DNA from: Polaromonas sp. CG_9.7
GTDB lineage: Bacteria > Pseudomonadota > Gammaproteobacteria > Burkholderiales > Burkholderiaceae_C
Reading direction: 5' to 3'
DNA: 64,000 bases
NCBI RefSeq assembly: GCF_015752205.1
Contig: NZ_JADOVG010000019.1
Location: forward strand, 1-64,000
Shown one piece after another: positions 713 to 63,178 of this stretch (position 1 is the first letter of the stretch; every line of letters begins with the position of its first letter). The notes beneath the pieces were generated by a model. The model ran no database searches. It was given only the letters and a program-made list of their open reading frames with translations, and had not been told where the DNA came from. The position numbers and the translations under genes were made by a program.

Positions 713-2059
713 TCACCCTGGCTGCAGGTATTCGCGCAACGCCTGCACCGTCCGCGCTGTCGCCCCCCGGTTCCTGGCAGAAAAGGCCAATCCGGCTGCG
801 ACCGCTTTCGCCAGCGCAGCCGGATCCTCAGCCAGCCCCAGGCCGGCCTGCACGCCTTCAGCCATGTCGGCCACGCGCAGCGCAGCGCCTTCGGCCTCGG
901 CGAGTTCGGCTGCTTCGGTGAAATTGAAGGTGTGCGGCCCCATCACGACCGGGCAGCCGCAGGCGGCGGCTTCGATCAGGTTCTGCCCGCCCAGCGGCGC
1001 AAAGCTGCCGCCCAGCAGGGCCGCGTCGGCCAGGCCGTAGTACAGCGCCATTTCGCCCAGCGAGTCGCCAAGCCAGACATCGGCGTTCATTGCCTCGGCG
1101 CTGTCGGCCGGGCTGCCGGTCCATTGCGAGCGGCGCGACACGCGCAGGCCGTGCAGCGCTGCCAGCGCGGCCACGTCGTCAAACCGCTGGGGATGGCGTG
1201 GCACGACCAGGGTCTTGAATCTGCAGTCCAACGGAATTGCTACTGAATTCATAGCTACCTGCGCTTGTGGGATATGCGCAAACGCCTTTATTTGCTTGAA
1301 AAACTCGTCTTCCTCGCCTTCACGCGAGCTGGCGAACATCAGCACCGGCTGCGCCAGCGACTGGCGCCAGGCCCGCCCTTTTTCCAGCTGGGCGGCGTCT
1401 GGCGTCGCGTCGAACTTCAGATTGCCGAACACGCCGGCGACCGGCGCGCCCAGCTGGTGAAAACGCCCGGCGTCGCCTTCGGTTTGCGCGTACACGGCCG
1501 ACAGCGCACCATAGGCGGGCAGCGACAAGGCCGACAAACGCAGCGCCTGCTTCAGCGACTTGGCCGACAGCCGGCCATTGACCAGCACCAGCGGCATGCC
1601 GCGTTGTTTGGATCCGGCCACGGTGTTGGGCCAGATTTCGGTTTCCATCAGCAGGCCCAGGCGCGGCTTGAAGTGGCTGAAAAAACGCGCCACCGCAGCC
1701 GGGCTGTCCCACGGCTGCCAGACCTGCACGTCGCCGGGCTGGCCTATGGATTTAAGCAGCGCCCGCCCCTCCTCGCGGCCGGTGGCGGTGCCATGCGTCA
1801 GCAGCAGCCGCAGCGCCGGATACTGCTTGTGCAGCGCCTTGAGCAGCATGGCGGCGGTGCGGGTTTCGCCCAGCGACACAGCATGCACCCAGACCAGTTC
1901 GGACACGGCTTCAGCCGGCTGGGCATAGTGGCCAAAGCGTTCATCGACCGCTTCAAGGTAGCCGGGCTCCTGCCGACCGCGCCGCGCCAGCTTGCGCCGC
2001 AGCAGCGGCTGGACGAGCGTCGTGAACACCGAATACAGCGCGCGCGCCCATCTGCTCAT
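713..2059 (-). CDS. waaA: 3-deoxy-D-manno-octulosonic acid (Kdo) transferase
   Basis: WaaA transfers Kdo from CMP-Kdo to lipid A precursor at the cytoplasmic face of the inner membrane, founding the LPS inner core. The 448-residue protein starts with a short hydrophobic anchor, then a GT-B fold: an N-terminal domain with WVHAVSLGET (about 57-66) and METEIWPN (about 139-146), and a C-terminal domain with LGGSFAPLGGQNLIEAA (about 350-366), the conserved sugar-nucleotide region. It is slightly longer than the usual 420-430 residues. Residues about 258-274 are encoded by an antisense copy of the dispersed palindromic element (1239-1286), which sits between conserved blocks. Its start overlaps the waaC stop (ATGA-type), so it is translationally coupled in an operon with the phosphomannomutase. 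Confidence 0.95.
   Translation of the reverse strand: MSRWARALYSVFTTLVQPLLRRKLARRGRQEPGYLEAVDERFGHYAQPAEAVSELVWVHAVSLGETRTAAMLLKALHKQYPALRLLLTHGTATGREEGRALLKSIGQPGDVQVWQPWDSPAAVARFFSHFKPRLGLLMETEIWPNTVAGSKQRGMPLVLVNGRLSAKSLKQALRLSALSLPAYGALSAVYAQTEGDAGRFHQLGAPVAGVFGNLKFDATPDAAQLEKGRAWRQSLAQPVLMFASSREGEEDEFFKQIKAFAHIPQAQVAMNSVAIPLDCRFKTLVVPRHPQRFDDVAALAALHGLRVSRRSQWTGSPADSAEAMNADVWLGDSLGEMALYYGLADAALLGGSFAPLGGQNLIEAAACGCPVVMGPHTFNFTEAAELAEAEGAALRVADMAEGVQAGLGLAEDPAALAKAVAAGLAFSARNRGATARTVQALREYLQPG
1239..1286 (+). repeat. Dispersed palindromic element, copy 1 (inside waaA)
   Basis: The core GCTACTGAATTCATAGC is followed by 9 bases and then a tail ending GCGCAAACGCC. It lies antisense within waaA and keeps the frame open (residues about 258-274). 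Confidence 0.75.
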
Positions 2060-3177
2060 GCGCCGTCGGCCCCGCGCATGGACGATTCCAGGGATTCGGA
2101 CGCCTGGCCGGGTACGCCCTGCACGGTTGCCAGGCAGCCCAGCCAGGCCTGCCAGACCGCGTCCACGCTGGGCTGGGGCGCGGCGTAAACGCTGACCTGT
2201 CGGGCGCTGGCCGCGTCAGGCCCCGTACGCCAGGCGGTGTCAAAGTTGTAGAGCTGCACATGCGGCAGGTCGAGCGCCACGGCGATGTGGCTGACGCCGC
2301 TGTCCACGCCAATGACGCCGGCGCACTGGGCCAGTTCGTGCGTCAGCGCGTCAAGCGCCAGCAGCGGCCAGACGACCGCCTGGCCAGGCGCGCCATCATT
2401 CAACGACCGGGCAATCGCCTGGCTTTTAAGCTTTTCTTTTTCATTGCCATGGGGCAGCGCAATCTGATAACCGGCGGCATTCAGGCGCTGGCCCAGTGCC
2501 GTCCAGTGGCCCAGCGGCCACTCCTTGTCGGCACGCGATGTGCCATGCACGAAAGCCACCCTGTTTGCTACTTTTTCAGTAGCCAAATGGTCAAGTCCTG
2601 TTTGCGCAAGAGGCCTTTTTAGTCCGTAGTCCGGGCGGGGCGTAAGGCAATAGCCCAGCGCCCGGGCCACCAGCTCGCGCGAGCGCTGCACGGCGTGGAT
2701 GTGCGGCTGGATGTGTATCGCCACGTCGGCCACCCAGCGCGTCGGGGCTTCATAGCCGGAACCATCGGTCTGGTTGGCCAGCGCGAAACGCTTGCCGCCA
2801 GGCGCCAGCCGCGCCAGCCGCGCCACAAGAGCAGATTTGGTCAGGCCCTGCAGGTCAATGACCGCGTCGTAGCCTGTCTGGCGCAGGTCGGCCTTGAAGG
2901 CGTTCCACTGCTGGCGCGTGACGGCGGACAGCGGCGACTTGCGCCAGCGCCGGATTTCGCACGGAATGACGCGCCGCACGCCGGGGTGCAGCGCCAGCAC
3001 AGGCGCAAACGATTTTTCAACCACCCAGTCGATGTGCGCGCCCGGCAGGGCCGCGAGAATGTCCTGCACCACCGGCAGGGCATGCACCACATCGCCGAGA
3101 GAAGACAGCTTGACAAGAAGGATTCGAACCCCCACGCTCCCCGCGCCCTGTATTGCGCTGTGCACTTCTTTGTTCAA
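2056..3177 (-). CDS. waaC: Lipopolysaccharide heptosyltransferase I
   Basis: WaaC adds the first L-glycero-D-manno-heptose to Kdo2-lipid A (GT9 family). The diagnostic N-terminus RILLVKLSSLGDVVHALPVV is present, and the C-terminal half has GVDSGVSHIAVALDLPHVQLY, the ADP-heptose binding region. The open frame starts at a TTG (3177) that overlaps the upstream stop. Family members usually begin directly at the RILLVK motif, so the GTG at 3135 is an equally good start (359 residues). A copy of the palindromic element encodes residues about 188-204 (LKRPLAQTGLDHLATEKVAN region), just before the VAFVHGTSRADKEWP block. It is the middle gene of the phosphomannomutase-waaC-waaA operon. Confidence 0.93.
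   Translation of the reverse strand: MNKEVHSAIQGAGSVGVRILLVKLSSLGDVVHALPVVQDILAALPGAHIDWVVEKSFAPVLALHPGVRRVIPCEIRRWRKSPLSAVTRQQWNAFKADLRQTGYDAVIDLQGLTKSALVARLARLAPGGKRFALANQTDGSGYEAPTRWVADVAIHIQPHIHAVQRSRELVARALGYCLTPRPDYGLKRPLAQTGLDHLATEKVANRVAFVHGTSRADKEWPLGHWTALGQRLNAAGYQIALPHGNEKEKLKSQAIARSLNDGAPGQAVVWPLLALDALTHELAQCAGVIGVDSGVSHIAVALDLPHVQLYNFDTAWRTGPDAASARQVSVYAAPQPSVDAVWQAWLGCLATVQGVPGQASESLESSMRGADGA
2567..2615 (+). repeat. Dispersed palindromic element, copy 2 (inside waaC)
   Basis: The core GCTACTTTTTCAGTAGC is perfectly palindromic at its 5-bp arms, and the tail ends TTTGCGCAAGAGGCC. It lies antisense within waaC and is read through without a stop. Confidence 0.7.
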
Positions 3178-4556
3178 TGCGCCGGCGCGGCAAACACCGC
3201 ATCGGGCTTGACGCTGCGCAGCAGCACCAGCATGTCGGCCTGGATGCGGTCAAGCGCCGCCTGCGTCTGCCCCTCGAAGCGCAAGACCAGCACCGGCGTG
3301 GTGTTGGAGGCGCGAATCAGGCCAAAGCCGTCCGGCCAGTCCACGCGCACGCCGTCAATGGTGTTGACCTTGGCGGGCGCGTCGAAATGCGCGGCCTTGA
3401 TGAGCGCGGTCACGGCCGTGTGCTGCTCGCCTTCGGCGCACGGCACGTTCAACTCGGGCGTGCTGAAGCTGGTCGGCAGACTGTTGAGCAGCTCCCCGGC
3501 GTCAAGCGCCTGGCTGACGATTTCCAGCAGCCGGCAGCCGGCGTAGGTGCCGTCGTCGAAACCGTACCAGCGTTCCTTGAAGAAGATGTGGCCGCTCATC
3601 TCGCCGCCAAGCGGGGAATCGACTTCCTTCATCTTGGCCTTGATCAGGGAATGGCCGGTCTTGTACATCAACGGCACGCCGCCGGCCGCTTCAATCTCGG
3701 GCGCCAGGCGCTGCGAGCATTTCACGTCATAGACAATCGTGCCGCCCGGCACGCGGCTCAGCACGTCACGGGCAAACAGCATCATCTGGCGGTCGGGGTA
3801 GATGTTCTGGCCGTCCTTGGTAACGATGCCCAGGCGGTCGCCGTCGCCGTCGAAGGCCAGTCCGAGTTCGGCGTCGCCGGCCTGCAGCGCCTTGATCAGG
3901 TCCTGCAGGTTCTCGGGCTTGCTGGGGTCGGGATGGTGGTTGGGAAAGTTCCCATCGACCTCGCTGAACAGCTCGGTCACTTCGCAGCCGATGGCGCGGA
4001 AAATATCGGGCGCCGTCGCGCCGGCAATGCCGTTGCCGCAATCGACGACGATCTTCATCGGCCGCGCCAGCTTGATGTCGGACACGATGCGCGCCTGGTA
4101 AGCCTGCGTCACGTCCTCGGTACGCCGCGTGCCGCCGTCCTTGAGCGACCAGGTTTCTCCGTCCATCATGGCGCGGATTGCCTGGATATCGTCGCCGTAG
4201 ATGGCGCGACCGGCCATGACCATCTTGAAGCCGTTGTAGTCCTTGGGGTTGTGGCTGCCGGTGACCTGGATGCCGGAGTTGCACAGCGTGTTGGCGGCGA
4301 AGTACAGCATCGGCGTGGTTACCATGCCGACATCGATCACTTCGATGCCGACCGCCTGCAGGCCGCGCATCAGCGCGGCGCTGAGCGACGGGCCGCTGAG
4401 CCGGCCGTCGCGGCCCACGGCTACTTTGGACTCGCCCTGCGCCAGCGCGATGCTGCCAAAAGCCTTGCCGATGCCCTCGGCAACGTCCTCGGTCACCGTG
4501 GCGGGCACGACGCCCCGGATGTCATAGGCCTTGAAAATCGAAGCGGCTACTTGCAT
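3174..4556 (-). CDS. algC: Phosphomannomutase/phosphoglucomutase
   Basis: This alpha-D-phosphohexomutase interconverts hexose 1- and 6-phosphates and supplies sugar nucleotides for LPS and exopolysaccharide, and glucose-1-P for glycogen. The 460-residue length matches the AlgC/PMM-PGM type. Visible sites are the phosphoserine loop TGSHNP (99-104, Ser101), the metal loop DGDGDR (236-241), and the sugar-specificity loop GEMSGH (about 328-333). It begins the leftward operon, with waaC overlapping its stop codon, and it adjoins the glycogen genes, which fits a role at the glucose-1-P branch point. The symbol follows Pseudomonas usage; manB or pgm would also be applied. Confidence 0.92.
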   Translation of the reverse strand: MQVAASIFKAYDIRGVVPATVTEDVAEGIGKAFGSIALAQGESKVAVGRDGRLSGPSLSAALMRGLQAVGIEVIDVGMVTTPMLYFAANTLCNSGIQVTGSHNPKDYNGFKMVMAGRAIYGDDIQAIRAMMDGETWSLKDGGTRRTEDVTQAYQARIVSDIKLARPMKIVVDCGNGIAGATAPDIFRAIGCEVTELFSEVDGNFPNHHPDPSKPENLQDLIKALQAGDAELGLAFDGDGDRLGIVTKDGQNIYPDRQMMLFARDVLSRVPGGTIVYDVKCSQRLAPEIEAAGGVPLMYKTGHSLIKAKMKEVDSPLGGEMSGHIFFKERWYGFDDGTYAGCRLLEIVSQALDAGELLNSLPTSFSTPELNVPCAEGEQHTAVTALIKAAHFDAPAKVNTIDGVRVDWPDGFGLIRASNTTPVLVLRFEGQTQAALDRIQADMLVLLRSVKPDAVFAAPAH

Positions 4557-4613
4557 GGTGGGGTTCTTTTTAAAATGTTGTTGAGGGCGATGGCGCTACA
4601 GGGCCGGAGTACA

Positions 4614-4640
4614 GAAAAAGGAAAAGGAAAAGGAAAAACA
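4614..4640. repeat. Short purine-rich tandem repeat
   Basis: About three and a half copies of the hexamer GGAAAA lie in the 172-base gap between glgA and the phosphomannomutase gene, the presumed leader of the latter. It could change length by slippage. Confidence 0.5.
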
Positions 4641-4728
4641 ATACCGGGAAATTTTATACAGCGGCTGGCGCCACAAGTAAACCGCAGGCGGCGGGCCAAA
4701 CGGACGCTACGCACGTTACAGGCCTTAT

Positions 4729-7737: not shown

Positions 7738-10170
<2,433 letters not shown>

Positions 10171-14511: not shown

Positions 14512-14574
14512 AAAAAATTTCCTTTCACTTTCACCATGACGAACAGGCAATCCGCAGACTGGATGCCTTTTTTT

Positions 14575-14622
14575 GCTATTTAATTCATAGCTGCTTACGC
14601 ATACTCTGAAAGCGCAATGACA
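14575..14622 (+). repeat. Dispersed palindromic element, copy 3 (glgX-malQ gap)
   Basis: The core GCTATTTAATTCATAGC is followed by TGCTTACGCA and a tail containing AAAGCGCAATGACA. This copy is intergenic. Confidence 0.75.
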
Positions 14623-16441: not shown

Positions 16442-17968
16442 ATGACGACGAAAAATTCCCTGCTGGCCGACGACGATTGCTATATCGCGCTGAAGGCGAG
16501 GGACGCGCGTTTCGACGGCCGCTTCTTCACCGGCGTGCTATCCACCGGCATCTACTGCCGGCCGGTGTGCAGCGTCAAGACACCGCTGCGCCAGAACTGC
16601 CGCTTTTTCAGCCATGCGGCGCAGGCCGAAAGCGCCGGTTTCCGGCCCTGCCTTCGCTGCCGGCCCGAACTGGCGCCGCATTCGGTGGCTTGGTCGATCC
16701 AGGATGCGTCTTACATCCTGGCGCATCAGGCGGCCCGGCTGTTAGATGAGCCCGACAGCTGGACCGATGAAGCCGTCTCCGTTGAAAAGCTGGCCGCGCG
16801 TCTGGGCGTGAGCAGCCGCCATGTGCGGCGCATCTTCGAGGCGCAGTTCGGCGTGTCGCCGTTGCAGTATTTGCAAACCCGGCGCCTGCTGACAGCTAAG
16901 CAGTTGCTGGCCGATACCGACATGCCCGTGACGCAGGTGGCGCTGGCCAGCGGCTTTGCCAGCGTGCGCCGTTTCAACGCCGCGTTCATGCAGCACTACC
17001 GGCTCAACCCAAGCGAGATGCGCCGGCAGCAAGAGAGCCCACAGCATGAAGGCATCACCGTTCGCCTGGGTTACCGCCCGCCTTACGACGTGGCCTCCAT
17101 GCTGAAGTTTATTGAAACACACCGCATAAACGCTATCGAATTCATAGCTACTGACAACCACCAGACAAGCACAGGAAGGACATTAGCCATCGAATCTAGC
17201 GGAAAAACACATGCGGGCTGGCTGCTCGCCCGTTTTGACGAGCCGCACAACCAGCTGGTCTTGCAGGTGAGCGATTCGCTGCGCGAGGTGCTGCCGCTGG
17301 TGATTCGCCGGGTCCGCGCGCTGTTTGACCTGGACGCCGACCCGGCCGCCATCAACAGCGTGCTGCACACCAGCTTTCCGGAGGGCGACGGGCTGCGGGT
17401 TCCCGGCGCGCTCGATGGCTACGAGCTGGCCGTGCGGGCGGTGCTGGGCCAGCAGATCACCGTCGCGGCGGCGCGAACGCTGGCGCAGCGGCTGGTGGAC
17501 CGATTCGGCGAGCCGATTGAAACGCCGTGGCCGCAGCTGACCCGGCTGTTTCCCGCGCCCGCCGTACTGGCCGTTGCCAGCAGTGATGCGCTCGGACAAT
17601 TGGGCATCGTCAGGCAGCGCCAGGCGGCCATTAACGGCATTGCGCAGGGGGTCGCCGAAAAGCGGCTGCATCTGCATGGTGGCGCCGATGTCAACGCAAC
17701 AATCGCCCAACTCAAGGCGCTGCCCGGCATTGGCGACTGGACGGCGCAATACATCGCCATGCGCGCCCTGTGCTGGCCCGATGCGTTTCCGGCCGGCGAC
17801 GTGGCGCTGCATAAAATGCTCGGTGTGCAGACACTCAAGTCGCCGGCCCGGGAAGCTGAAAAGGCATCGCTGGCGTGGAAACCGTGGCGCAGCTACGCCG
17901 TCATACGCGCCTGGAGCGGCTTGCTGGCCGCCGCGCCAGACAAGCTGCCTTCATTGGAAATACCATGA
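16442..17968 (+). CDS. alkA: Ada-type regulator / AlkA DNA-3-methyladenine glycosylase II fusion
   Basis: This is a single 508-residue protein with three parts. The N-terminus is an Ada zinc domain that accepts methyl groups from phosphotriesters; the metal cysteines are seen in TGIYCRPVCSVKTP and FRPCLRCRPELAP (about 34-80). An AraC-type helix-turn-helix follows (about 105-195, VEKLAARLGVSSRHVRRIFE). The AlkA half has an N-terminal AlkA domain and a HhH-GPD glycosylase with LKALPGIGDWTAQYIAMRAL and the catalytic Asp in FPAGDVALHK. The methylguanine methyltransferase domain is absent and is supplied by the next gene, ogt. Residues about 231-246 derive from a copy of the palindromic element, at the start of the AlkA half. 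Confidence 0.93.
   Translation: MTTKNSLLADDDCYIALKARDARFDGRFFTGVLSTGIYCRPVCSVKTPLRQNCRFFSHAAQAESAGFRPCLRCRPELAPHSVAWSIQDASYILAHQAARLLDEPDSWTDEAVSVEKLAARLGVSSRHVRRIFEAQFGVSPLQYLQTRRLLTAKQLLADTDMPVTQVALASGFASVRRFNAAFMQHYRLNPSEMRRQQESPQHEGITVRLGYRPPYDVASMLKFIETHRINAIEFIATDNHQTSTGRTLAIESSGKTHAGWLLARFDEPHNQLVLQVSDSLREVLPLVIRRVRALFDLDADPAAINSVLHTSFPEGDGLRVPGALDGYELAVRAVLGQQITVAAARTLAQRLVDRFGEPIETPWPQLTRLFPAPAVLAVASSDALGQLGIVRQRQAAINGIAQGVAEKRLHLHGGADVNATIAQLKALPGIGDWTAQYIAMRALCWPDAFPAGDVALHKMLGVQTLKSPAREAEKASLAWKPWRSYAVIRAWSGLLAAAPDKLPSLEIP
17132..17179 (+). repeat. Dispersed palindromic element, copy 4 (inside alkA)
   Basis: The core is GCTATCGAATTCATAGC. The 12-mer CACCAGACAAGC follows the ATAGCT arm after 9 bases, exactly as in copy 10. 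It is sense with alkA. Confidence 0.75.
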
Positions 17969-17970
17969 AT

Positions 17971-18017
17971 GCTATTAAAAAAATAGCTTAAAACGCATAC
18001 TCAGCGGGCGAAAAGCC
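17971..18017 (+). repeat. Dispersed palindromic element, copy 5 (alkA-ogt gap)
   Basis: The core GCTATTAAAAAAATAGC starts two bases after the alkA stop; the tail reads AGCGGGCGAAAAGCC. As a hairpin directly after the stop it might also act in transcript 3'-end formation. Confidence 0.7.
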
Positions 18018-18094
18018 TGTAAAAACCATAAATTTTTGCAGTTATCCTGCCCATCCGCGCGAAAGCCAACAAGCCACACGCTAAAGAGAGCATC

Positions 18095-31230: not shown

Positions 31231-31307
31231 TGGCGGAGCGGACGGGACTCGAACCCGCGACCCCCGGCGTGACAGGCCGGTATTCTAACCAACTGAACTA
31301 CCACTCC
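31231..31307 (-). tRNA. tRNA-Asp (GTC), copy 1
   Basis: 77 bases including encoded CCA. The acceptor stem GGAGTGG/CCGCTCC has one T:G pair, the anticodon loop is CTGTCAC (GTC), and the TpsiC arm is GCGGGTTCGAGTCCCGT. Its 3' end is the attachment site of the island. Confidence 0.97.
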
Positions 31308-31386
31308 TGGTAGAAAAGCGTTTGCTCTTGCGAGCCAAGTGCTTAACAACTTGTGCTTGTTCTCTTTGCCTTACGACAAGGAAATT

Positions 31387-31462
31387 TGGCGACCCTACGG
31401 GGATTCGAACCCCGGTACCTACCGTGAAAGGGTAGTGTCCTAGGCCTCTAGACGATGGGGTC
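31387..31462 (-). tRNA. tRNA-Glu (TTC), copy 1
   Basis: 76 bases with encoded CCA. The acceptor stem begins GACCCCA, the anticodon loop is CTTTCAC (TTC), and the T arm is CGGGGTTCGAATCCCCG. It is read leftward just before tRNA-Asp. Confidence 0.97.
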
Positions 31463-31547
31463 TTAACCTGGTGACTTCCGGCGCAGGCTTTTCAAGGCCT
31501 GCAAAAATCTCGACAATCTTTTAAATCACAAAACGGATTTAAGAGGA

Positions 31548-31580
31548 AAGCCCTCGTAATTCATAGAATTGCAAGGGCTT
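31548..31580 (-). terminator. Terminator-like hairpin after tRNA-Asp copy 2
   Basis: AAGCCCT and AGGGCTT arms lie just downstream of the second tRNA-Asp; the minus strand continues TTTCCTCTT. The following T-run is short. Confidence 0.5.
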
Positions 31581-31585
31581 CAATC

Positions 31586-31662
31586 TGGCGGAGCGGACGG
31601 GACTCGAACCCGCGACCCCCGGCGTGACAGGCCGGTATTCTAACCAACTGAACTACCACTCC
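31586..31662 (-). tRNA. tRNA-Asp (GTC), copy 2
   Basis: Identical over its 77 bases to the tRNA-Asp at 31231-31307; anticodon GTC, encoded CCA. Confidence 0.97.
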
Positions 31663-31741
31663 TGGTAGAAAAGCGTTTGCTCTTGCGAGCCAAGTGCTTA
31701 ACAACTTGTGCTTCTTCTCTTTGCCTTGCGGCAAGGAAATT

Positions 31742-31817
31742 TGGCGACCCTACGGGGATTCGAACCCCGGTACCTACCGTGAAAGGGTAGTGTCCTAGGC
31801 CTCTAGACGATGGGGTC
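31742..31817 (-). tRNA. tRNA-Glu (TTC), copy 2
   Basis: Identical to the copy at 31387-31462; anticodon TTC, encoded CCA. Confidence 0.97.
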
Positions 31818-31885
31818 TTAACCTGGTGACTTCCGGCGCAGGCTTTTTAAGGCTTGCAAAAAAACTTCAAAAATTCTCAGACAGT

Positions 31886-31961
<76 letters not shown>

Positions 31962-36724: not shown

Positions 36725-37642
36725 CTAGAAACTCAGGACGGCAACCGGCAAATCAAGCGCCCTGATCTTGTTCACCGCCTTTTCAGCCTCCGCCTTGTTG
36801 GCAAACGGCCCGACGCGAACGCGGACACGCTTGCCCTCCTTGGTGTCGACCACTTGGGTGTAGGTGTTGAGGCCGGCTTTTTCCAGCTTGCGGCGTGTTT
36901 CCTCGGCCTTGGCGGCATCGGCAAAAGCACCCACCTGCACCACCATGCGGCCCTTGGTTTCGGCGGCAGCGGCCTTGTTTTCTTCGACAGTCGCCGGCTT
37001 GGTCGGTGCTTCCACCTTGGGGGGTTGTACAGCAGGCCTGGCGTTGAGCAACGCCAACGCCCGCGCGCCGTCATTGCTCAAAGGAGCCGGCTTGGCAGGC
37101 ACAGGTTCGGGCTTGACCGCTGGCTGGGCTTCCACTTTTTCGACGGGCTTGGGTTCAGGTTTGGGTTCAGGGCGTGACCTGACCTCCGGCCTGGCTTCAA
37201 CTATTGCCTCCTGCCGGGGTTCTGGCTTCACTTCTTTTTTAATAGCTGGAGAAGCAGGCTCGGCAAGCGGTACAGCCGGTTCTGATGGATAAATTTCTTC
37301 GGTAGGTGACAAGCTCGTGGCCGCCGTCACCGTTTGCGCTGCAGACGAAGTCGTCTTGGCTGGAGCCGGCGCGGTGGCCACTGCAGGCGCAGGCACGGGA
37401 ACCACCAGCGGCTTGACGTTATTTTTCCCTGGAATTTCAATCGGAATATCGACAGCCACCGGACGTGGCTGGGTTTCAAACAGCATTGGAAAGCCGATAA
37501 CGCCCAGCAGTACCAGCACCGATGCACCGATCAGCCGGTGCTTGGCACGCTTGCGCAGCACTTCGACGCTAAGCGCCTGGGTGGCTGAACCGACAGGAGG
37601 GGTTGGACTGGTGTCGCCCCGACGGAACTTGAAAAACGCCAT
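36725..37642 (-). CDS. SPOR-domain protein (DedD-like)
   Basis: This 305-residue bitopic protein has a short cytoplasmic N-terminus, one membrane helix (ASVLVLLGVIGFPMLF, about 41-56), a long Pro/Ala/Glu/Lys-rich periplasmic linker (about 85-220), and a C-terminal SPOR domain (about 225-305; MVVQVGAFADAAKAEETRRK and RVRVGPFANKAEAEKAVNKI). SPOR domains bind denuded septal peptidoglycan, so it is likely a cell-division protein. The linker repeats short KPEP/RPEP units. It sits between folC and cvpA as in many betaproteobacteria. Confidence 0.93.
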   Translation of the reverse strand: MAFFKFRRGDTSPTPPVGSATQALSVEVLRKRAKHRLIGASVLVLLGVIGFPMLFETQPRPVAVDIPIEIPGKNNVKPLVVPVPAPAVATAPAPAKTTSSAAQTVTAATSLSPTEEIYPSEPAVPLAEPASPAIKKEVKPEPRQEAIVEARPEVRSRPEPKPEPKPVEKVEAQPAVKPEPVPAKPAPLSNDGARALALLNARPAVQPPKVEAPTKPATVEENKAAAAETKGRMVVQVGAFADAAKAEETRRKLEKAGLNTYTQVVDTKEGKRVRVRVGPFANKAEAEKAVNKIRALDLPVAVLSF

Positions 37643-37747: not shown

Positions 37748-39058
37748 TCAGGCCGACAAATGCGGCGCCGAAAGTCGCGGCACGCCGTTCTTTAGGATTC
37801 CGCCCACGGTGTAAAACGAGCCAAAAACCACAATTCTATCAGTCGGGTTTGCCGCCTTGACAACTGCTTGCAATGCCAAATCAGGGCTTTTGTAAGCAGC
37901 GGCTGTCACGTCCGGCCGGGTGTTGCCGGCCTGCCAGGCAAGGCGCAGCGCTTCGCCTGAGGCAGCCCGCGGCGTCGGCAGGTCGGTAAAATACCATTTA
38001 TCGATAAGCGGGCTGATGCGCGCCAGCATGGGGCCGACGTCCTTGTCGGCCATGGCGCCAAATACGGCATGCGTGCACGGATAAAACCCCATGGCGTCGA
38101 GGTTTTCGGTCAGCGCGGCCACCGAATGCGGGTTGTGCGCCACGTCGAGCACCAGCGTCGGCTGGCCGGGAATGATCTGGAATCTTCCCGGCAATTCGAC
38201 CAGCGACAGGCCATTGCGTACCGACTGCGCGGTGACCGGCAGACGGTCGCGCAAGGCGGTCAGCGCCGCCAGCACACCCGAGGCATTGACCAGCTGGTTG
38301 GCACCGCGCAGCGCTGGATAAGCCATACCGGCATAGCGGCGGCCGCGTCCGGCCCAGCTCCACTGGAGCTTGTCGCCGGAAAAATTGAAGTCGTGGCCAA
38401 AGCGCCATAAATCGGCGCCCAGGGCGGCAGCATGGTCGAGCACGCTTTGCGGCGGCACCGGGTCGCTGACAACGACCGGCCGGCCGGCGCGCATGATGCC
38501 GGCTTTCTCGAAGCCGATGGCTTCCCGCGTCGATCCGAGCAATTCCATGTGGTCCAGGTCGATGCTGGTGATGACGGCGCAGTCGGCGTCCAGGATGTTG
38601 ACGGCGTCGAGCCGGCCGCCCAGGCCCACTTCCAGGATCACCACGTCGAGCTTCGCATTGGCCAGCAGCTGCAGGATGGCCAGGGTGGTGAATTCAAAGT
38701 AGGTCAGCGATATTTCATTGCCATTTTGGCATCTTGCGCTTTCCACAAAAGCGAAGTTAGCTATTAAATCAGTAGCACTGACGATGTCGCCCCGCACCCG
38801 GCAACGCTCCTCGAAATGCACCAGATGCGGTGAGTTGTAGACGCCGGTCTTGTAGCCTGCCTCCATGAGGATGGCTTCCAGCATGGCGCAGGTCGAGCCC
38901 TTGCCGTTGGTACCCGCCACGGTGATGACCGGGCAGTCAAACTTCAGCCCCATGCGTTCTGCCACGGTCCGGACGCGGTCCAGGCCCATGTCGATGCTTG
39001 TGGGGTGCAGGCGCTCGCAATGCGCCAGCCAGTCGTCCAAAGTGGTGAGATTTTGCAT
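37748..39058 (-). CDS. folC: Dihydrofolate synthase/folylpolyglutamate synthase
   Basis: FolC adds glutamate to dihydropteroate and extends folate polyglutamate tails. It is a Mur-ligase fold protein with P-loop VITVAGTNGKGSTCAMLEAI near residues 44-63 and the second-domain ATP and Glu site LDVAHNPHS. The start is ambiguous: ATG 39058 (MQNLTTLDDWL, 436 residues) fits the family, with another ATG at 39070. Residues about 95-110 (ATDLIANFAFVESARC) derive from a palindromic element between conserved blocks. The accD gene usually upstream is absent here; proline iminopeptidase precedes it instead. Confidence 0.93.
   Translation of the reverse strand: MQNLTTLDDWLAHCERLHPTSIDMGLDRVRTVAERMGLKFDCPVITVAGTNGKGSTCAMLEAILMEAGYKTGVYNSPHLVHFEERCRVRGDIVSATDLIANFAFVESARCQNGNEISLTYFEFTTLAILQLLANAKLDVVILEVGLGGRLDAVNILDADCAVITSIDLDHMELLGSTREAIGFEKAGIMRAGRPVVVSDPVPPQSVLDHAAALGADLWRFGHDFNFSGDKLQWSWAGRGRRYAGMAYPALRGANQLVNASGVLAALTALRDRLPVTAQSVRNGLSLVELPGRFQIIPGQPTLVLDVAHNPHSVAALTENLDAMGFYPCTHAVFGAMADKDVGPMLARISPLIDKWYFTDLPTPRAASGEALRLAWQAGNTRPDVTAAAYKSPDLALQAVVKAANPTDRIVVFGSFYTVGGILKNGVPRLSAPHLSA
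38728..38776 (-). repeat. Dispersed palindromic element, copy 6 (inside folC)
   Basis: The core is GCTACTGATTTAATAGC and the tail ends AAGCGCAAGATGCC. It is sense with folC and in the same codon phase as copies 4, 9 and 10. Confidence 0.75.
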
Positions 39059-39107: not shown

Positions 39108-40220
<1,113 letters not shown>

Positions 40221-40253
40221 CTACTTCCTTATAAAAAACCTGAAAATGACAAA

Positions 40254-43339: not shown

Positions 43340-45027
<1,688 letters not shown>

Positions 45028-45037
45028 CGGTTTTTTT

Positions 45038-45087
45038 AGCAGGTGGCGCTTGTAGGACGGGCGCTGTTTGCTATTGAATTTGTAGTG
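45038..45087 (-). repeat. Dispersed palindromic element, copy 8 (downstream of argG)
   Basis: Minus strand: an imperfect core ACTACAAATTCAATAGC, then a tail with AACAGCGCC and TACAAGCGCC at the positions seen in the other copies. Confidence 0.6.
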
Positions 45088-45142
45088 ATATTGGTGCCTC
45101 CTGGAACCACTTCTTCTGCTGTTCAGTGAAGAGAAATCACTT

Positions 45143-49864: not shown

Positions 49865-50932
49865 TCACACCACCACCGGCTCCGGCTCGAGCAGAATGCC
49901 AAAGCGCTCGTAGACGCTGGTCTGAATCGCCTTGGCCAGCGTCATCACCTCCCCACCGGTCACCGGGTTGGCGTTGCCTCCCCGGTTGATCAGCACCAGC
50001 GCCTGCTTCTCGTACACACCGGCATTGCCAATGGACTTGCCTTTCCAGCCGCAGGCGTCAATCAGCCAGCCGGCGGCGAGCTTGACAGAACCATCGGCCA
50101 GTTGGTAATGCACGATTTTCGGATCCCGCTGGATGATGTCTTCACATTGTTCGGGCGACACCGTCGGATTCTTGAAGAAGCTGCCGGCGTTGCCAATGAC
50201 TTTCCAGTCAGGCAGCTTGGCGCGGCGAATCTCACAAACCCACTCATAAATTTGTAGCGCATCAGGCACGTCCACATTGCGCTGGAGCCTCTTTTTCTCT
50301 ATATCTGCATAGCCGAGCACGGGTTTCCAGGCTTTCGGCAGCAAAAAGCGCACACGGGTGATCAGCGCCTTGTTTTTCAATCCCAGGGCTTGCGCACCCG
50401 ACGCTTCGCCGGGCTTGCTGGCGTGCTTGAAGACCGAATCGCGGTAGCCAAATGCGCATTGCGCAGCGTTCAGGGTGAAGCTCTGGCCGGTTGTCAGATC
50501 GACGGCATCAAGCGAGTCGAAGCGGTCTTGCAACTCGACACCATAAGCGCCGATGTTCTGCACCGGCGAGGCACCGACGGTGCCGGGAATCAGCGCCAGG
50601 TTTTCCAGGCCGGGAAAGCCGTTTTGCAGCGTCCAGGTGACCAGTTCGTGCCAGTCTTCGCCGGCGCCGGCCTCAATGATCCAGGCCTTGGGCGTTTCAC
50701 GGGCCAGGCGCTTGCCCATGATCTCGACTTTGAGCACCAATGGCTTGACGTCGCCGGTCAGCACGATGTTGCTGCCGCCACCCAGTACGAATTTGGGAGC
50801 AGCCTGCAAGGCCGGGTCTTGCAGCACGGCTTGAATGTCGGCTTCGCTGCCCAGGCGAACAAGATGAAGCGCCTTGGCGACGATGCCGAAGGTGTTGCAA
50901 GACTGGAGGGGAATGTTTTTCTCGACTAACAT
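49865..50932 (-). CDS. murB: UDP-N-acetylenolpyruvoylglucosamine reductase
   Basis: MurB reduces UDP-GlcNAc-enolpyruvate to UDP-MurNAc with NADPH and FAD, an essential peptidoglycan step. The 355-residue type I protein has the FAD loop [14 protein letters not shown] (about 48-61), [20 protein letters not shown] with GAYGVEL, and the catalytic Ser in [11 protein letters not shown] decayed partial copy lies at 47255-47764. It is divergent from yajQ, with 53 bases between starts. Confidence 0.97.
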
Positions 50933-57822: not shown

Positions 57823-58094
57823 TGTGATCCTTTGTTGACAACGGCTGGAAATGCCTTATCGGATCGTTGCCAGTCCTTAAAGCCTTTTCATACGCGCGGC
57901 ATCAGCAGCGGCGACACATAAAGTTAATTTTTTTACCTTACGTATTAACTCATAAAAATGAGTAAATTTTGATAATTTTGAATAAATATGTTTTATTTGT
58001 AAAAAATATATTTATTTGAGCATTAATGATTTTTATCAAATCAGAACATCTAAAAGCGTTGAAATCGATGATGCTGAATTTATTCAAATTTCCG
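57823..58094. promoter_or_regulatory. AT-rich region upstream of the minor pilin operon
   Basis: These 272 bases, conspicuously AT-rich from about 57920 to 58090 against a GC-rich background, separate the plsY stop from fimT. They probably carry the pil operon promoter, and H-NS-like silencing is plausible. No specific sites are assigned. Confidence 0.5.
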
Positions 58095-58733: not shown

Positions 58734-58754
58734 AGTCAGGTCTCCTTGTATTTG

Positions 58755-59246
58755 TTATTCAGCCAGTGCGCATTGCACCGGTTTGGCACCGAGCAGCGTG
58801 ACGCAGACTTGTGGATCGATGCGCACCAGATAGCCGCGCCGCCCGCCGTTGATGGCGATTTCAGGCAGCCCCAGAATGCTTTCCTCGATGTAAATCGGCA
58901 TGGTTTTGCGTGTACCGAAAGGCGAGGTGCCGCCCACCAGGTAGCCGCTGTGGCGATTGGCGACTTCGGGCTTGCAGGGTTCGACCGACTTGGCACCGAT
59001 CTGGCGTGCCAGGGTCTTGGTCGAGACCTTGCGGTTGCCGTGCATCAGCACCAGCAGGGGCTTGGCGTCCTGGTCCTGCATGACCAGTGTCTTGACCACA
59101 GTGAATGGGTCAAACCCCAGCACCTGCGCGCTGTGCTGCGCACCGCCATGCGCCAGGTATTCGTAGGGATGCTCGGTGAACGCCACATTGCTGGCTTTGA
59201 GCCATTGCGTGGCCGGTGTCTCGCAGACGTGGTCTTTTTTAGCCAT
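58755..59246 (-). CDS. ybaK: Cys-tRNA(Pro)/aminoacyl-tRNA deacylase YbaK
   Basis: This 163-residue trans-editing protein hydrolyses misacylated Cys-tRNA(Pro). Family motifs are AFTEHPYEYL, KTLVMQDQDAKPLLVLMHG, the catalytic-region lysine and GGTSPFGTRKTMPIYIEES. The length is normal. It lies between plsY and the aldo/keto reductase, all leftward. Confidence 0.93.
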   Translation of the reverse strand: MAKKDHVCETPATQWLKASNVAFTEHPYEYLAHGGAQHSAQVLGFDPFTVVKTLVMQDQDAKPLLVLMHGNRKVSTKTLARQIGAKSVEPCKPEVANRHSGYLVGGTSPFGTRKTMPIYIEESILGLPEIAINGGRRGYLVRIDPQVCVTLLGAKPVQCALAE

Positions 59247-59282
59247 GATTTGTCTAAGCAGCAGTCAGAACAGACACGGTGT

Positions 59283-60344
59283 TTACAGTGCCGGGTCCCG
59301 TATTTCCCAGCGAATCCGGTCGATTTCCGCCAGCACTTCGGCACTCAGCGTCGTGCCGTGCGCATCCAGGTCCTCATCAAGCTGCGCCACCGAGGTTACC
59401 CCGATGATGGTGCTGGCCACCTGCCACTTGGTGTAGCAAAACGCCAGCGCCAGTTGCGTGGGGCTCAGGCCGTTGTCACGCGCCAATTGGTTGTAGCGGC
59501 GCGCCGCGGCCAGCGATTCGGGACGGCCCCAGCGTTGCTTGCGCACCGATTCATACCGGGCGATGCGGGCGTTTGGCGGCGCATTGGCGCCCTCGGTTCC
59601 GGACGTGTCGTACTTGCCGGTCAACAGGCCGAAAGCCAGCGGCGAATACGCCAGCAGCGACACGCCAAGGCGGTGCATGGTTTCGTCCAGACCATTTTCC
59701 ACGGTGCGGTTGACCAGACAATACGGGTTTTGCACCGTGGCCACGCGCGGCAGATTGTGCTGCTCGGCCAGGCGGACAAACTCGTGCACGCCGTAAGGCG
59801 ATTCGTTCGACAGGCCAATATGGCGCACCTTGCCTTGCGCCACCAACCGGCCCAGCGCATCAAGCTGTTCATGCAGCGTGGTCGCGCTGCGTTCCTGGGC
59901 CGGTTGGTAATACGGCACACCAAGGCCCGGCACATGGCGCTCGGGCCAGTGGATCTGGTAAAGGTCGATCACATCGGTCTGCAAGCGCTTCAAACTGGCA
60001 TGGCAGGACGCGGTGATGTCATCGGCCGTCATGCCCTTGCCTTCGCGAATCCAGGGCATGTTGCGCGAAGGTCCGGCAACCTTGGTGGCCAGCACCAGTT
60101 GCCGGCGCACGCCCGGATGCCGGGCCAGCCAGTTGCCAATGATGGTTTCGGTGGCGCCAAAGGTTTCAGCGCGCGCCGGCACCGCATACATTTCAGCGGT
60201 GTCCAGGAAATTGATGCCGCGCGCCAATGAACGGTCCAAAATAGTGTGGGACGTGGCTTCATCGACCTGTTCGCCAAACGTCATGGTTCCCAGGCAGACC
60301 GGTGAGACCTGCAAATCGCTTGCGCCGAGTTGAACTTTATTCAT
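59283..60344 (-). CDS. Aldo/keto reductase (Tas-like)
   Basis: This 353-residue NADPH-dependent TIM-barrel reductase starts MNKVQLGASDLQVSPVCLGTM. Catalytic elements are Asp and Tyr in INFLDTAEMYAVP, Lys in VLATKVAGPSRN, and His in DLYQIHWPER; the C-terminus holds the cofactor site IIGVTSVAQLDEDL. It is closest to the Tas/YajO type. The substrate is not predictable. Confidence 0.92.
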   Translation of the reverse strand: MNKVQLGASDLQVSPVCLGTMTFGEQVDEATSHTILDRSLARGINFLDTAEMYAVPARAETFGATETIIGNWLARHPGVRRQLVLATKVAGPSRNMPWIREGKGMTADDITASCHASLKRLQTDVIDLYQIHWPERHVPGLGVPYYQPAQERSATTLHEQLDALGRLVAQGKVRHIGLSNESPYGVHEFVRLAEQHNLPRVATVQNPYCLVNRTVENGLDETMHRLGVSLLAYSPLAFGLLTGKYDTSGTEGANAPPNARIARYESVRKQRWGRPESLAAARRYNQLARDNGLSPTQLALAFCYTKWQVASTIIGVTSVAQLDEDLDAHGTTLSAEVLAEIDRIRWEIRDPAL

Positions 60345-60561
60345 GAAAAAGATGGGTTGGAGTAAACGGTTTGAAAAAGCAGGCAGCCTTTGCGGTAATA
60401 GCCGAAAAGTGCTAGTTTAAATGCAGTAAAAGTGGCTTCAACGCACCTGCACCTGGGCATTTGTCTGACATTTTCATACACTTGAAACGTCTAGCATTGA
60501 TCTTCTGACGTTTCGATGCGCTGTTCTAATCAGGCAACATTCATTTTTTGAGGAGTCCTTC

Positions 60562-61224
60562 ATGAGAAAAGCATTTACCACCACCGTTACCTGTGCAGCC
60601 CTGTCCCTGGCGGTCTTGTCAGGTTGCGCAAACATGAGTGAAACCCAGCGTGGCACCGCACAGGGTGCGGGTATCGGCGCCGGCCTGGGCGCATTGCTGG
60701 GCGCGGCCACGGGCGGCTCCAGGGGTGCGGTGCAGGGCGCCGCGCTGGGCGGCGCAGTCGGCGCGGGTGGCGGCTACATCTGGTCCAAGAAAATGCAGGA
60801 CCAGAAAGTCGCCATGGAACGCGCGACAGCCGGCACCGGCATTGGCGTGAGCCAGACGCAGGACAACCGACTGAAGCTGGACATTCCAAGCGACGTGTCG
60901 TTTGACGTGGGCCGCTCGGCCATCAAGTCCAACTTTGCCCCGGTGCTGACAAATTTTGCGACCAGCCTGAACCAGAACCAGATCACCACGGTGTCCATCA
61001 TCGGCCACACCGACAGCACCGGTTCTGACGCCATCAACAACCCGCTGTCGTTTGACCGCGCCAACGCAGCGCGTGACTACCTGGTGGGCCGTGGCGTGGC
61101 CGCACAGCGTATTGCCACCGATGGCCGTGGTTCGCGTGAAGCCATTGCCGACAACAGCAGCGAGCAGGGCCGCGCCCGGAACCGTCGCGTCGAGATCTAC
61201 GTGGCCGAGCCGGCTCAACGTTAA
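60562..61224 (+). CDS. OmpA-family lipoprotein
   Basis: The 220-residue protein is preceded by TTGAGGAGTCC. A signal peptide with lipobox VLSGC (Cys at about 21) leads to a glycine zipper (GAGIGAGLGALLGAATGGS, then QGAALGGAVGAGGGY) and a C-terminal OmpA domain (IIGHTDSTGSDAINNPLSFD, then NAARDYLVGRGV and RNRRVEIYV) that binds peptidoglycan diaminopimelate. It resembles E. coli YiaD. A terminator follows. Confidence 0.94.
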   Translation: MRKAFTTTVTCAALSLAVLSGCANMSETQRGTAQGAGIGAGLGALLGAATGGSRGAVQGAALGGAVGAGGGYIWSKKMQDQKVAMERATAGTGIGVSQTQDNRLKLDIPSDVSFDVGRSAIKSNFAPVLTNFATSLNQNQITTVSIIGHTDSTGSDAINNPLSFDRANAARDYLVGRGVAAQRIATDGRGSREAIADNSSEQGRARNRRVEIYVAEPAQR

Positions 61225-61245
61225 TCCCCGGCTGGCGGGTTGACT

Positions 61246-61275
61246 CAAAAAAAAGCGCCTCAGGGCGCTTTTTTC
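61246..61275 (+). terminator. Rho-independent terminator
   Basis: AAAAAAAAGCGCC, a short loop, and GGCGCTTTTTT; stem plus T-run 22 bases after the OmpA gene. The A-run makes it usable on the minus strand too, for the converging synthetase. Confidence 0.9.
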
Positions 61276-61297
61276 ACGTCTGGAAATGGCAGGCCGC

Positions 61298-63178
61298 TCA
61301 AGTCTTTTTGAAGCGCGCTTCCTCTTGCAAGCGCAGCACGCGGCGCTGCACCTTGCCGGTGGTGGTCATTGGCAGCGCGTCGATGAATTCGATTTCCTTC
61401 GGGTATTCATAGGGCGCCAGCATGTTTTTGACATGGGCCTGCAGTTCCGCCACCAATTTTTGATCAAATTCGGCAATGGCGCCCGCTGCATCTGCCCGAG
61501 CAGCTATTGAATCAGGAGCAAGAACGACGTAGGCCTTGACCACCGCACCGCGCTCGCTGTCGGGCTTGGGCACCACGGCGGCGTTGGCCACGGCTGGATG
61601 CTTGACCAGACAGTTCTCAATTTCGCCGGGGCCGATGCGGTAGCCGGCGGCCTTGAACACATCGTCGGCCCGGCCTTCGTACCAAAGGTAGCCGTCGGCG
61701 TCAACCCGCGCCAGATCGCCGGTGCGGCACCAGTCACCGGTGAACTTGGCGCGCGTGGCGGCTTCGTTCTTCCAGTAACCCAGGAAAAAGATCGGGTCCG
61801 CATCGCCGTGGATGTCAAAGCGGTTGACCGCCACATCGCCCGGCACGCCGACCGGGCACTCCTGGCCGTCGTCGTCTATCACCTTGACCTGATGGCCCGG
61901 ATAGGCCTTGCCCATGCTGCCCGGCCGGGCCGGCCAGCCGGCGCGCCCGCCCAGCGCCGCCAACACGGGAAACAATTTTGCCGACTGGCTGCGCTGAAGC
62001 GGCACGAAGCCCTGTGTCGGCAGCACATTCAGCGAACCGGCCGCGTCATGGCAGTTGCCGACCACGTAATTGATCTCGGTCTGGCCGAACATCTCGTTGA
62101 CCGTCACGCCAAGTTGCTCGCGGCAGTAGTCAAACACCGCGTCACCCACCGCTTCGCCGGCGCTCATCAGGCCTTGCAAGCGCAGCGTGAACTGCTCGCG
62201 CGGTCGCGCAAAGGCCTTCATCATGGCTTTCAGCGCGGTTGGAAACAAAAAACTGTGCGTCACACCATGTTCGGCCATCAGGCTGAAGGCAAGTTCAGGG
62301 CTGAAGCGGCCGTTGAACGCCACAATCGGCCGGCCGAAATACAGCGTCGGCAGCAGTGCATCCATCAGCCCGCCGGTCCAGGCCCAGTCGGCCGGGCTCC
62401 AGAACACCGCATCAGATGCTTGATTGCCAATGCCGTCAAAGCCAAACCCGTTCTGGCTGCAAACGAAACCGGGCAGGTTGCCAATCAGAGCCCGGTGCGC
62501 CAGCAGCGCGCCCTTGGGCTGGCCGGTCGTGCCGCTGGTGTAGATGAGGATGGCGGCGTCGTCAGCGCGGGTGTGGACTGCGGTGAATTCGCCCTGCTGC
62601 GCTTGCAGGCTCGGCGCGTAGTCCACATCGCCCTGCCCCGCCGCGCCACCGGCAGCCATCAGCGTGCGCAGCGACGGGCATTCGGCCCGGATGGCCTTCA
62701 TGCTGTCAATCGAGGTTTCATCGCAAATCGCCAGCACCGCCGCGCTGTCCTGCAGCCGGAAGGCCAGCGCTTCAGGCCCGAACAGCATCGACAGCGGCAT
62801 CGCGACGGCGCCAAGCTGGAACACGGCCATATAGGCCACGGCCGTCTCGAAGCGCTGCGGCATCACGATGGCAACACGGTCGCCACGCTGCACGCCCAGC
62901 GCGGCCAGCCCATGGCTGAGCGCATCGGCCGCCTGCTTCAGCTCGAAATAAGTATGAAAAACGGCTTTTGCGCTTGTCTGGTGAGCAAGCACAGCTATTC
63001 TTTGCGTAGCATCTGGCGGGGCGTTTTCAACCCGCGCCCATCGGCTGCAACAGACCTCGGCGATGTTGAAGAATTCATCCACCTGCCAGCGAAAGCCGCC
63101 GTGCAGTTGCGCATAGTGGTCGGGCAGGTCCTGCGCCGGTTGGTGTCCGGGCATGTCGCTGTCTTGACTGATGTTCAA
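61298..63178 (-). CDS. AMP-forming acyl-CoA synthetase (acetyl/medium-chain type)
   Basis: The 626-residue ANL-superfamily ligase activates a carboxylic acid through acyl-AMP to acyl-CoA. The P-loop-like AILIYTSGTTGQPKGALL lies at about 213-230, NEMFGQTEINYVVGNC is the A5 motif, WYEGRADDVFKAAGYRIGP the hinge, and the C-terminal lysine is in TTTGKVQRRVL. It resembles acetyl-CoA synthetase-like or medium-chain enzymes; substrate unproven. Two palindromic elements lie inside it, at residues about 57-72 and 554-569, so it is longer than relatives at those points. It is divergent from the hydrolase gene. Confidence 0.9.
   Translation of the reverse strand: MNISQDSDMPGHQPAQDLPDHYAQLHGGFRWQVDEFFNIAEVCCSRWARVENAPPDATQRIAVLAHQTSAKAVFHTYFELKQAADALSHGLAALGVQRGDRVAIVMPQRFETAVAYMAVFQLGAVAMPLSMLFGPEALAFRLQDSAAVLAICDETSIDSMKAIRAECPSLRTLMAAGGAAGQGDVDYAPSLQAQQGEFTAVHTRADDAAILIYTSGTTGQPKGALLAHRALIGNLPGFVCSQNGFGFDGIGNQASDAVFWSPADWAWTGGLMDALLPTLYFGRPIVAFNGRFSPELAFSLMAEHGVTHSFLFPTALKAMMKAFARPREQFTLRLQGLMSAGEAVGDAVFDYCREQLGVTVNEMFGQTEINYVVGNCHDAAGSLNVLPTQGFVPLQRSQSAKLFPVLAALGGRAGWPARPGSMGKAYPGHQVKVIDDDGQECPVGVPGDVAVNRFDIHGDADPIFFLGYWKNEAATRAKFTGDWCRTGDLARVDADGYLWYEGRADDVFKAAGYRIGPGEIENCLVKHPAVANAAVVPKPDSERGAVVKAYVVLAPDSIAARADAAGAIAEFDQKLVAELQAHVKNMLAPYEYPKEIEFIDALPMTTTGKVQRRVLRLQEEARFKKT
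61472..61519 (-). repeat. Dispersed palindromic element, copy 9 (3' part of acyl-CoA synthetase)
   Basis: The core GCTCCTGATTCAATAGCT is slightly degenerate; the tail contains GCGGGCGCC. It is sense and in frame (residues about 554-569, APDSIAARADAAGAIA). Confidence 0.55.
62963..63010 (-). repeat. Dispersed palindromic element, copy 10 (5' part of acyl-CoA synthetase)
   Basis: The core is GCTACGCAAAGAATAGC; the tail has CACCAGACAAGC and GCAAAAGCC at the standard offset. It is sense and in frame (ATQRIAVLAHQTSAKA). Confidence 0.75.

Follow-up and report, generated by a model that had tools for sequence, protein, structure and literature searches.

A stretch of 64,000 nucleotides of Polaromonas sp. 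CG_9.7 (contig NZ_JADOVG010000019.1, positions 1 to 64,000; hereafter, the window) contains the same partly palindromic sequence many times, both between genes and inside them. How did this sequence come to lie in so many protein-coding genes in one reading frame, and what is it for? A first-pass annotation of the window had treated it as an inserted element. According to our analysis, the repeat is a motif of DNA some 70 bp long, which within genes appears to have arisen mainly by substitution, and which we tentatively interpret as a self-recognition signal of the uptake-sequence type.

The repeated motif

Most genome matches of our sequence profile (R1) cover model positions 3 to 70–72 of 74, and thus the repeat unit is about 70 bp long. 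The first-pass annotation had described ten copies of about 50 bp; the motif is indeed present at all ten places (10/10), with the longer unit and with a total of 12 copies in the window. Read from 5′ to 3′, it comprises an AT-rich start, the core GCTAY-N7-RTAGC, GC near position 30, GCGC near positions 43–46, a GGC/GCC-like block, a T-rich block, and an A-rich end. The layout is rigid, as an alignment of 36 copies is gap-free, and the conserved blocks are spread over about 70 positions, instead of forming a short uptake core of 9–12 bp; the information content is 58 bits over 70 columns, as calculated for a profile-selected set. The GC content of the copies varies from 20 to 61%, with the mean of 42%. 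The ends are short and AT-rich, as seen in the consensus (terminal inverted repeats and target duplications were not subject to a formal search).

The core is strongly over-represented. Seven exact cores GCTAY-N7-ATAGCT are found in the window, compared to 0.02 expected from shuffles, so that the core initially proposed is exact at seven of the ten places, while the core deviates at two positions in the copies at 2567 and 45086 and at one position in that at 61519. The own genome (that of CG_9.7) contains 306 core matches on either strand versus five for a reversed-pattern control, some sites being counted twice in the 306 since symmetric sites match on both strands. In a 464-kb sample of the own genome, consisting of the window and 20 stretches of 20 kb, the profile yields 72 matches, that is, 69 copies once same-site complements are dropped, or approximately one per 6.7 kb; extrapolation from this sample gives an estimate of some 600 copies in the whole genome. 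The same sample contains 29 distinct perfect core sites (0.2 expected), 49 with one mismatch (21 expected), and 384 with two mismatches (374 expected), and hence the core is sharply defined.

The motif is one of DNA, not of RNA. The alignment of the 72 matches shows neither a consensus fold nor covariation, and in the set of viral copies the excess of pairing is weak and confined to one arm; an RNA hairpin family was therefore rejected. No copy in the window has a gathering-level match in Rfam, and the only Rfam hit in the vicinity of the waaA copy falls well short of the threshold of its family. Helically phased A/T tracts are ruled out as well, since the base-composition periodogram along the motif has no peak at 10.5 bp.

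Position relative to genes and codon phase

Genes were called with our own simple gene caller, according to which 82% of the DNA is coding. Thirty of the 69 copies lie inside genes (15 in the sense and 15 in the antisense orientation), and the other 39 are intergenic or extend over a gene end, so that noncoding DNA is enriched for copies (p = 9e-13). Among the 39, divergent spacers are underrepresented (two versus 9.1 expected by length, p = 0.004), and convergent ones show a mild excess (12 versus 7.3 expected, p = 0.06).

Inside genes, the core is read as GCN NNN NNN NNN RTA GCN in 22 out of 25 anchorable copies, five more copies being impossible to anchor. If the two stop-free frames are taken as equally likely (the third one contains an in-frame TAG), the binomial p-value is 1.6e-4. 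Hence, the single codon phase noticed earlier in the window extends to both orientations and to the wider sample, and the view of a dispersed repeat tolerated within genes in a preferred codon phase is upheld; the number of window copies in protein genes, initially given as six, is eight out of 12.

Two copies overlap a called start codon, so that the motif encodes the protein N-terminus (L108:3004-3072, L105:9689-9754), and two others lie near N-termini resembling signal peptides (L102:2985, L105:5092).

Orientation relative to replication was considered when a part of the copies hinted at one-strand runs, and was dropped given the fuller set, as the strands are mixed along two single-contig genomes. 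A mild orientation skew is seen in one of them, G505:C1, where a hand count of 100 of the 131 listed copies gives 40 on the plus and 19 on the minus strand in the first 2.07 Mb, and 16 and 25, respectively, beyond it.

Copies within genes probably arose by substitution

An inserted 70-mer should add about 23 residues to the protein compared to distant homologs. We applied this test to 11 of the 30 in-gene copies called in the sample, namely those examined with alignable homologs, which are not a random draw. None of the 11 shows a 23-residue gap in the protein alignments. The residue excess within the motif is one for GcvP, one for PriA, zero to one for the N-terminal copy in an acyl-CoA synthetase, zero for PdxJ (a partial copy, about 16 residues), four for FolC, four to five for AlkA (eight counting the next gap), −4 to +7 for MiaA, five to seven in most outgroups and at most ten for WaaC, eight for an RlmD-like protein, and 10–12 for the C-terminal synthetase copy. 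The nearest to 23 is WaaA with 8–19 residues, which fall in a linker. In FolC, the motif overlaps residues common to the best solved homolog (..ESAR..), and FolC of the congener G545, lacking the motif, is just four codons shorter.

Since an inserted unit would leave about 23 extra residues and none of the 11 copies does, these gene copies do not look like insertions; in genes, the motif appears to have arisen mainly by substitution. The parallel drawn by the first-pass annotation, with in-frame insertion of the kind known for Rickettsia palindromic elements (RPEs), is thus not supported for the gene copies: several copies lie on conserved residues, and the alignment check suggested there leaves a gap of zero to five residues within the motif for AlkA, FolC, GcvP, PdxJ, PriA, and the N-terminal synthetase copy. 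An identical gap argument has been used to show that the uptake signals of Haemophilus influenzae are not insertions (Redfield et al., 2006, PMC1626085; the available part of the paper).

Age, conservation, and loss of copies

The copies are old, and most of them have kept their positions throughout the genus. Syntenic stretches fetched from congeners contain 37 copies: 24 can be assigned to a window copy from the DNA around them, without a single change of orientation, ten have no flank in the window, and three map where the window has no copy. In waaA, the motif occupies the same codons in most copy-rich congeners. Among ten rich congeners, chosen for keeping the motif, paired codons for one and the same residue agree in 320 of 447 comparisons inside the motif versus 6539 of 11521 outside, and A/T-ending codons constitute 153 of 230 inside versus 853 of 3967 outside. 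Third bases can stay while first bases change (CAA/GAA/CTA, GTA/ATA, AAT/GAT).

Copies may also be lost. In the WaaA tree, the copy-poor genome G544 (15 matches) is nested in a rich clade with the support of 98/91 for the clade, and thus G544 has lost most of its copies; in its waaA gene, the residues can still be recognized, but not the codons of the motif. The tree contains four more poor genomes, near the unresolved base of the genus. The repeat had been suggested to be mobile or formerly mobile; being old and mostly fixed, it is not freshly mobile.

Distribution among genomes and dialects

With a strict pattern, three of 250 genomes evenly drawn from the order are positive, all among the seven of the own family, compared to none of 243 from other families. 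In a family sample, the pattern is found in 72 of 299 genomes and 41 of 141 genera, with up to 249 matches per genome; a control pattern gives four matches in all (hand count). Copy numbers vary within genera, e.g., 184 in G498 versus zero in G421, and 103 in G434 versus zero in G508. The congener G345 has one strict copy and yet carries cores at two of the compared sites; the strict pattern is therefore dialect-bound, and the cross-genus counts, like the zero in other families, have to be read as minimum values. According to the profile, the genus itself is bimodal, with at least 107 matches in 15 of 21 genomes and at most 15 in the remaining six (a per-genome value of 150 means at least 150).

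The dialects affect the second half of the motif, which is TGCGC..TGCGCAAAAGGC in the own genome versus AGCGCTT..AAGCGCTGGAGCC in the viral set, the head being common to both; two other genera carry further forms.

The host family is probably the Comamonadaceae, judging from taxonomy and the record of an Acidovorax metagenome-assembled genome, which has three profile matches in 8 kb. We take both Acidovorax and Verminephrobacter to be genera of this family.

The competence gene product ComEC is encoded in all 36 genomes with at least ten strict copies (hand count) and also in 287 of the 299 genomes of the family sample; being near-universal, it does not discriminate, and its absence is ruled out as the cause of copy-poor genomes. 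One copy-rich genome, G252, has three ComEC matches with a weaker best score (1.7e-30), possibly reflecting damaged competence.

Copy number is not associated with Y1_Tnp transposase genes either: in a set of 40 genomes, such genes occur in 19 of the 20 rich genomes and in 17 of the 20 without copies, the rich genome G385 having none, and the single Y1 gene of the own genome has no flanking motif, as judged by eye. This speaks against repetitive extragenic palindromic (REP) sequences driven by REP-associated tyrosine transposases (RAYTs). In G264:C1, 20 Y1_Tnp matches, several of them identically scored, apparently represent an IS200/IS605-like burst unrelated to the motif.

Copies between genes and in phages

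Spacers of six gene pairs were compared among congeners, two pairs giving no informative comparison. In the spacer around L101:5648, the own 68 bp are the motif alone, whereas the corresponding length is −4 in G544 and 132 with a core in G555. The spacer around L100:14818 is 59 bp in the own genome and 56, 56, and 116 bp in other genomes with the motif, compared to 27 bp in G544. The hisF–hisI spacer is 79 bp in the own genome, 84 bp in G557, where the copy is decayed, and 50 bp or less in four copy-poor congeners. Finally, the tatC–htrA spacer is 138 bp in the own genome (a weak copy), 212 and 159 bp in two genomes with a core, 197 bp without a core in G557, and 13–50 bp in three poor congeners.

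In the copy-rich congener G555, the hisF–hisI spacer (81 bp) holds a different, GC-rich repeat instead of the motif, and so does that of G345 (145 bp). This repeat (loci L342 and L337, respectively) reads CGTCGGACGCTCA.TGC.. and is possibly of the Beta-proteobacterial repeat element (BRE) type; a pattern search found no match to it in the own-genome sample and L140–L159.

In viral contigs, the strict pattern occurs in 65 stretches, and 49 of the 68 matches lie between genes. Two phage genes beside copies resemble the genes for the recombination protein Bet and a cytosine methylase of named phages. We compared 40 relatives of two phage gene junctions (25 of 41 loci from one set and 15 of 15 from the other). 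Eight rows, two of them identical, have a core and a stop-to-start gap of 62–79 bp, and a ninth one (L253) has a variant core; 13 rows, including the close relatives L246, L247, L249, L251, L287, and L289, have no core and a gap of 1–12 bp; and the remaining 18 have neither a core nor a clear spacer under the open reading frame (ORF) rule. Intergenic copies, both in the host and in phages, are thus accompanied by additional DNA, amounting to the whole unit in the clearest cases. This favors a unit that may be gained or lost there, and it would not be expected from point mutation alone.

In L245, L248, L286, L288, and L292, the motif occupies the stop-start spacer upstream of locus position 1501, and its end runs into a ribosome-binding-like stretch; in the relatives L246, L247, L249, L251, L287, and L289, lacking the motif, this spacer is 1–10 bp long, the corresponding position in L287 being 1081.

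Copies in the window

The 12 window copies (E ≤ 0.01) are as follows. Two lie in antisense orientation inside the genes waaA (713–2059, minus strand; PF04413) and waaC (PF01075): the former at 1235–1303 (plus strand, 53.6 bits), covering residues 253–275, and the latter at 2563–2630 (plus strand, 34.6 bits), covering residues 183–205. An intergenic copy at 14571–14620 (plus strand, 40.1 bits), whose right part is unmatched, lies 60 bp after a gene with CBM_48 and alpha-amylase domains. The Ada/AlkA fusion gene carries a sense copy at 17128–17196 (plus strand, 25.3 bits; residues 229–252), included both in the gap test and in the comparison with congeners, and a further copy right at its stop codon (17967–18036, plus strand, 34.1 bits), whose place and orientation are shared by four congeners (loci L145, L151, L155, and L159).

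Two copies are absent from the initial list, namely, one at 37235–37295 (plus strand, 26.5 bits) inside the ORF 36725–37642 (minus strand), and a weak one at 50250–50305 (plus strand, 15.4 bits, E = 0.008) inside the ORF 49865–50932 (minus strand), which may be murB-like, judging from a sequence motif. The sense copy inside folC is at 38712–38778 (minus strand, 40.1 bits) and was considered in the gap test and codon by codon. It is followed by an intergenic copy at 40168–40235 (plus strand, 36.7 bits), flanked by divergent genes, and by one at the 3′ end of argG, identified by Pfam (45023–45088, minus strand, 29.5 bits). The acyl-CoA synthetase gene contains two copies, both gap-tested: the C-terminal one at 61454–61521 (minus strand, 35.9 bits) and the N-terminal one at 62945–63014 (minus strand, 38.8 bits).

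In addition, five minus-strand tRNA genes lie close together in the window (31234–31961).

Possible function of the motif

The reading that we favor, though with somewhat less than even confidence, is that the motif, spread over the whole genome, marks DNA as self in the manner of uptake sequences. In Verminephrobacter eiseniae, transformation has been reported to be sequence-specific and to depend on type IV pili, and in Acidovorax temperans to work only with DNA of the same species, the available text of that report naming no signal sequence for either (Davidson et al., 2014, PMC4212676). Still more tentatively, the motif could be the signal behind this sequence-specific transformation in the Comamonadaceae, that is, a signal of about 70 bp with genus dialects, which would have reshaped hundreds of sites and entered phages. 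A putative DNA receptor on the cell surface, belonging to the type IV pilus machinery for transformation, would favor motif-bearing DNA; uptake and recombination would be more frequent for fragments with the motif; and such biased transformation would spread the motif and keep it at its sites. In genes, it would arise and persist mainly through base substitutions in tolerated codons, and between genes it might also come or go with a whole piece of DNA. Both biased uptake as the driving force and a pilus receptor binding the motif are inferred here, and the grouping with uptake sequences would be one by resemblance, not by proven membership.

A number of observations weigh against the uptake-type signal. 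The unit of about 70 bp is unusually long compared to the known uptake cores of 9–12 bp; even the extended uptake signal sequence (USS) is about 30 bp. Perfect cores do not exceed singly mismatched ones (29 versus 49, the latter being 28 above chance), unlike what is reported for H. influenzae, and with one copy in about 6.7 kb the motif is sparser than known uptake sequences. ComEC, near-universal in the family, does not distinguish rich genomes from poor ones, and no receptor for the motif has been identified, no search having been aimed at one. Copies between genes and in phages bring extra DNA, up to the whole unit, and the hisF–hisI spacer of the rich congener G555 holds another repeat in place of the motif. 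The waaA copy is decayed in two otherwise rich genomes, G542 and G545. Third-base invariance by column is not significant either in waaA (5/23 inside versus 46/416 outside, p = 0.17) or in waaC (1/21 versus 36/313, p = 0.49).

The main rival, which fits the data nearly as well and which we nevertheless consider rather unlikely, is a site for an abundant chromosomal protein, such as a nucleoid-associated protein, gyrase, or a segregation factor, selected for chromosome organization and decaying once the protein is lost or shifts its specificity. The rigid gap-free layout, recognition at the DNA level, mostly fixed positions, dialects between genera, and the presence of copies in viral contigs all agree with such a site, and a length of 70 bp would be more natural for DNA wrapped in a nucleoprotein complex than for a pilus receptor site. 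However, base composition along the motif has no 10.5-bp peak, the strands are mixed along the two single-contig genomes (with the mild skew of G505), and sister species would be expected to agree in the presence of a conserved architectural protein. Of similarly low probability, in our opinion, is an old, once mobile non-autonomous element resembling miniature inverted-repeat transposable elements (MITEs), REPs, or RPEs, with the present copies being relics and the codon phase a survivor effect. In its favor are the presence or absence of a unit at phage junctions (62–79 bp in the eight core rows versus 1–12 bp in 13 rows) and in host spacers (68 bp versus −4 at one pair), and the 58 bits over 70 columns, which exceed the need of site recognition. 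On the other hand, such relics would have to be reconciled with the lack of 23-residue gaps in genes, with the persistence of motif bases at old shared sites despite the opposing local codon bias, and with Y1 transposase/RAYT genes whose occurrence is unrelated to copy number. A feature of transcription or of mRNA concentrated at gene ends, e.g., a terminator or a 3′ processing or stability element, could account for the few copies in divergent spacers (two of 39 versus 9.1 expected), the mild convergent excess (12 versus 7.3), and the GCGC arms followed by a T-rich tail; we consider it very improbable given that 30 of 69 copies lie inside genes, half of them in the sense orientation, that no consensus RNA structure or covariation is seen, and that the only Rfam hit in the vicinity of the waaA copy falls well short of the threshold of its family.

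If the motif is an uptake signal, it provides a molecular handle on the sequence-specific transformation in the Comamonadaceae, whose signal is not named in the available part of the literature on it. It would also add one more bacterial family with uptake signals and demonstrate that a motif of this type may be several times longer than the known ones. Whatever its function, this DNA motif has left its mark on the codons of many genes and has decayed in part of the lineages; comparing copy-rich with copy-poor sister genomes offers a way to find the gene whose product recognizes it.

Comparison with known systems

RPEs are repeats with a palindromic part that lie in frame inside protein genes and whose insertions are visible as alignment gaps. 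The motif shares the palindromic part and the in-frame position, but its gene copies are not insertion gaps (0/11). REPs and bacterial interspersed mosaic elements (BIMEs) are short palindromic dispersed repeats, many of them at gene ends. The motif resembles these RAYT-related repeats in all these respects and differs from them in the large in-gene share (30/69) and in the lack of association with Y1_Tnp in 40 genomes.

BREs have been reported from the Comamonadaceae including Polaromonas; in Bordetella, they are 75–91 bp long, with 69% GC, are present in at most 29 copies per genome, and are sometimes arranged in tandem (PMC3110155, the available part). Like the BRE, the motif is a dispersed betaproteobacterial repeat with some copies in coding sequences; unlike the BRE, it has the mean GC content of 42% and hundreds of copies. 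Thus, it differs from the BRE in GC content, length, and copy number, being set apart by the published description of the BRE, not by its letters. No description of the motif was found in the open-access literature searched, a search that covers no subscription papers.

The closest resemblance is to the USS of the Pasteurellaceae, in particular H. influenzae, and to the DNA uptake sequences (DUS) of the Neisseriaceae, here as far as the available parts of the sources describe them. In H. influenzae, 65% of the uptake signals lie in coding DNA without significant orientation bias, and have AT-rich flanking segments and subclade dialects, and the density of USS and DUS is roughly one per kb (Redfield et al., 2006, PMC1626085); dialects of DUS are known in the Neisseriaceae (PMC3630211). 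Two features of the USS are missing here, that is, a short core and the excess of perfect cores over singly mismatched ones; in addition, compared to USS and DUS with their cores of 9–12 bp, the motif is about 70 bp long, is less dense, and brings extra DNA with between-gene copies. At the same time, it shares with them the over-representation (306 core matches versus five for the control), the large number of copies in both orientations, the preference for noncoding DNA with many copies nevertheless in genes, the origin of the in-gene copies by substitution, the AT-rich flanking segments, and the lineage dialects, and its decay in G544, nested among rich genomes, is reminiscent of the weakening of uptake sequences after loss of competence.

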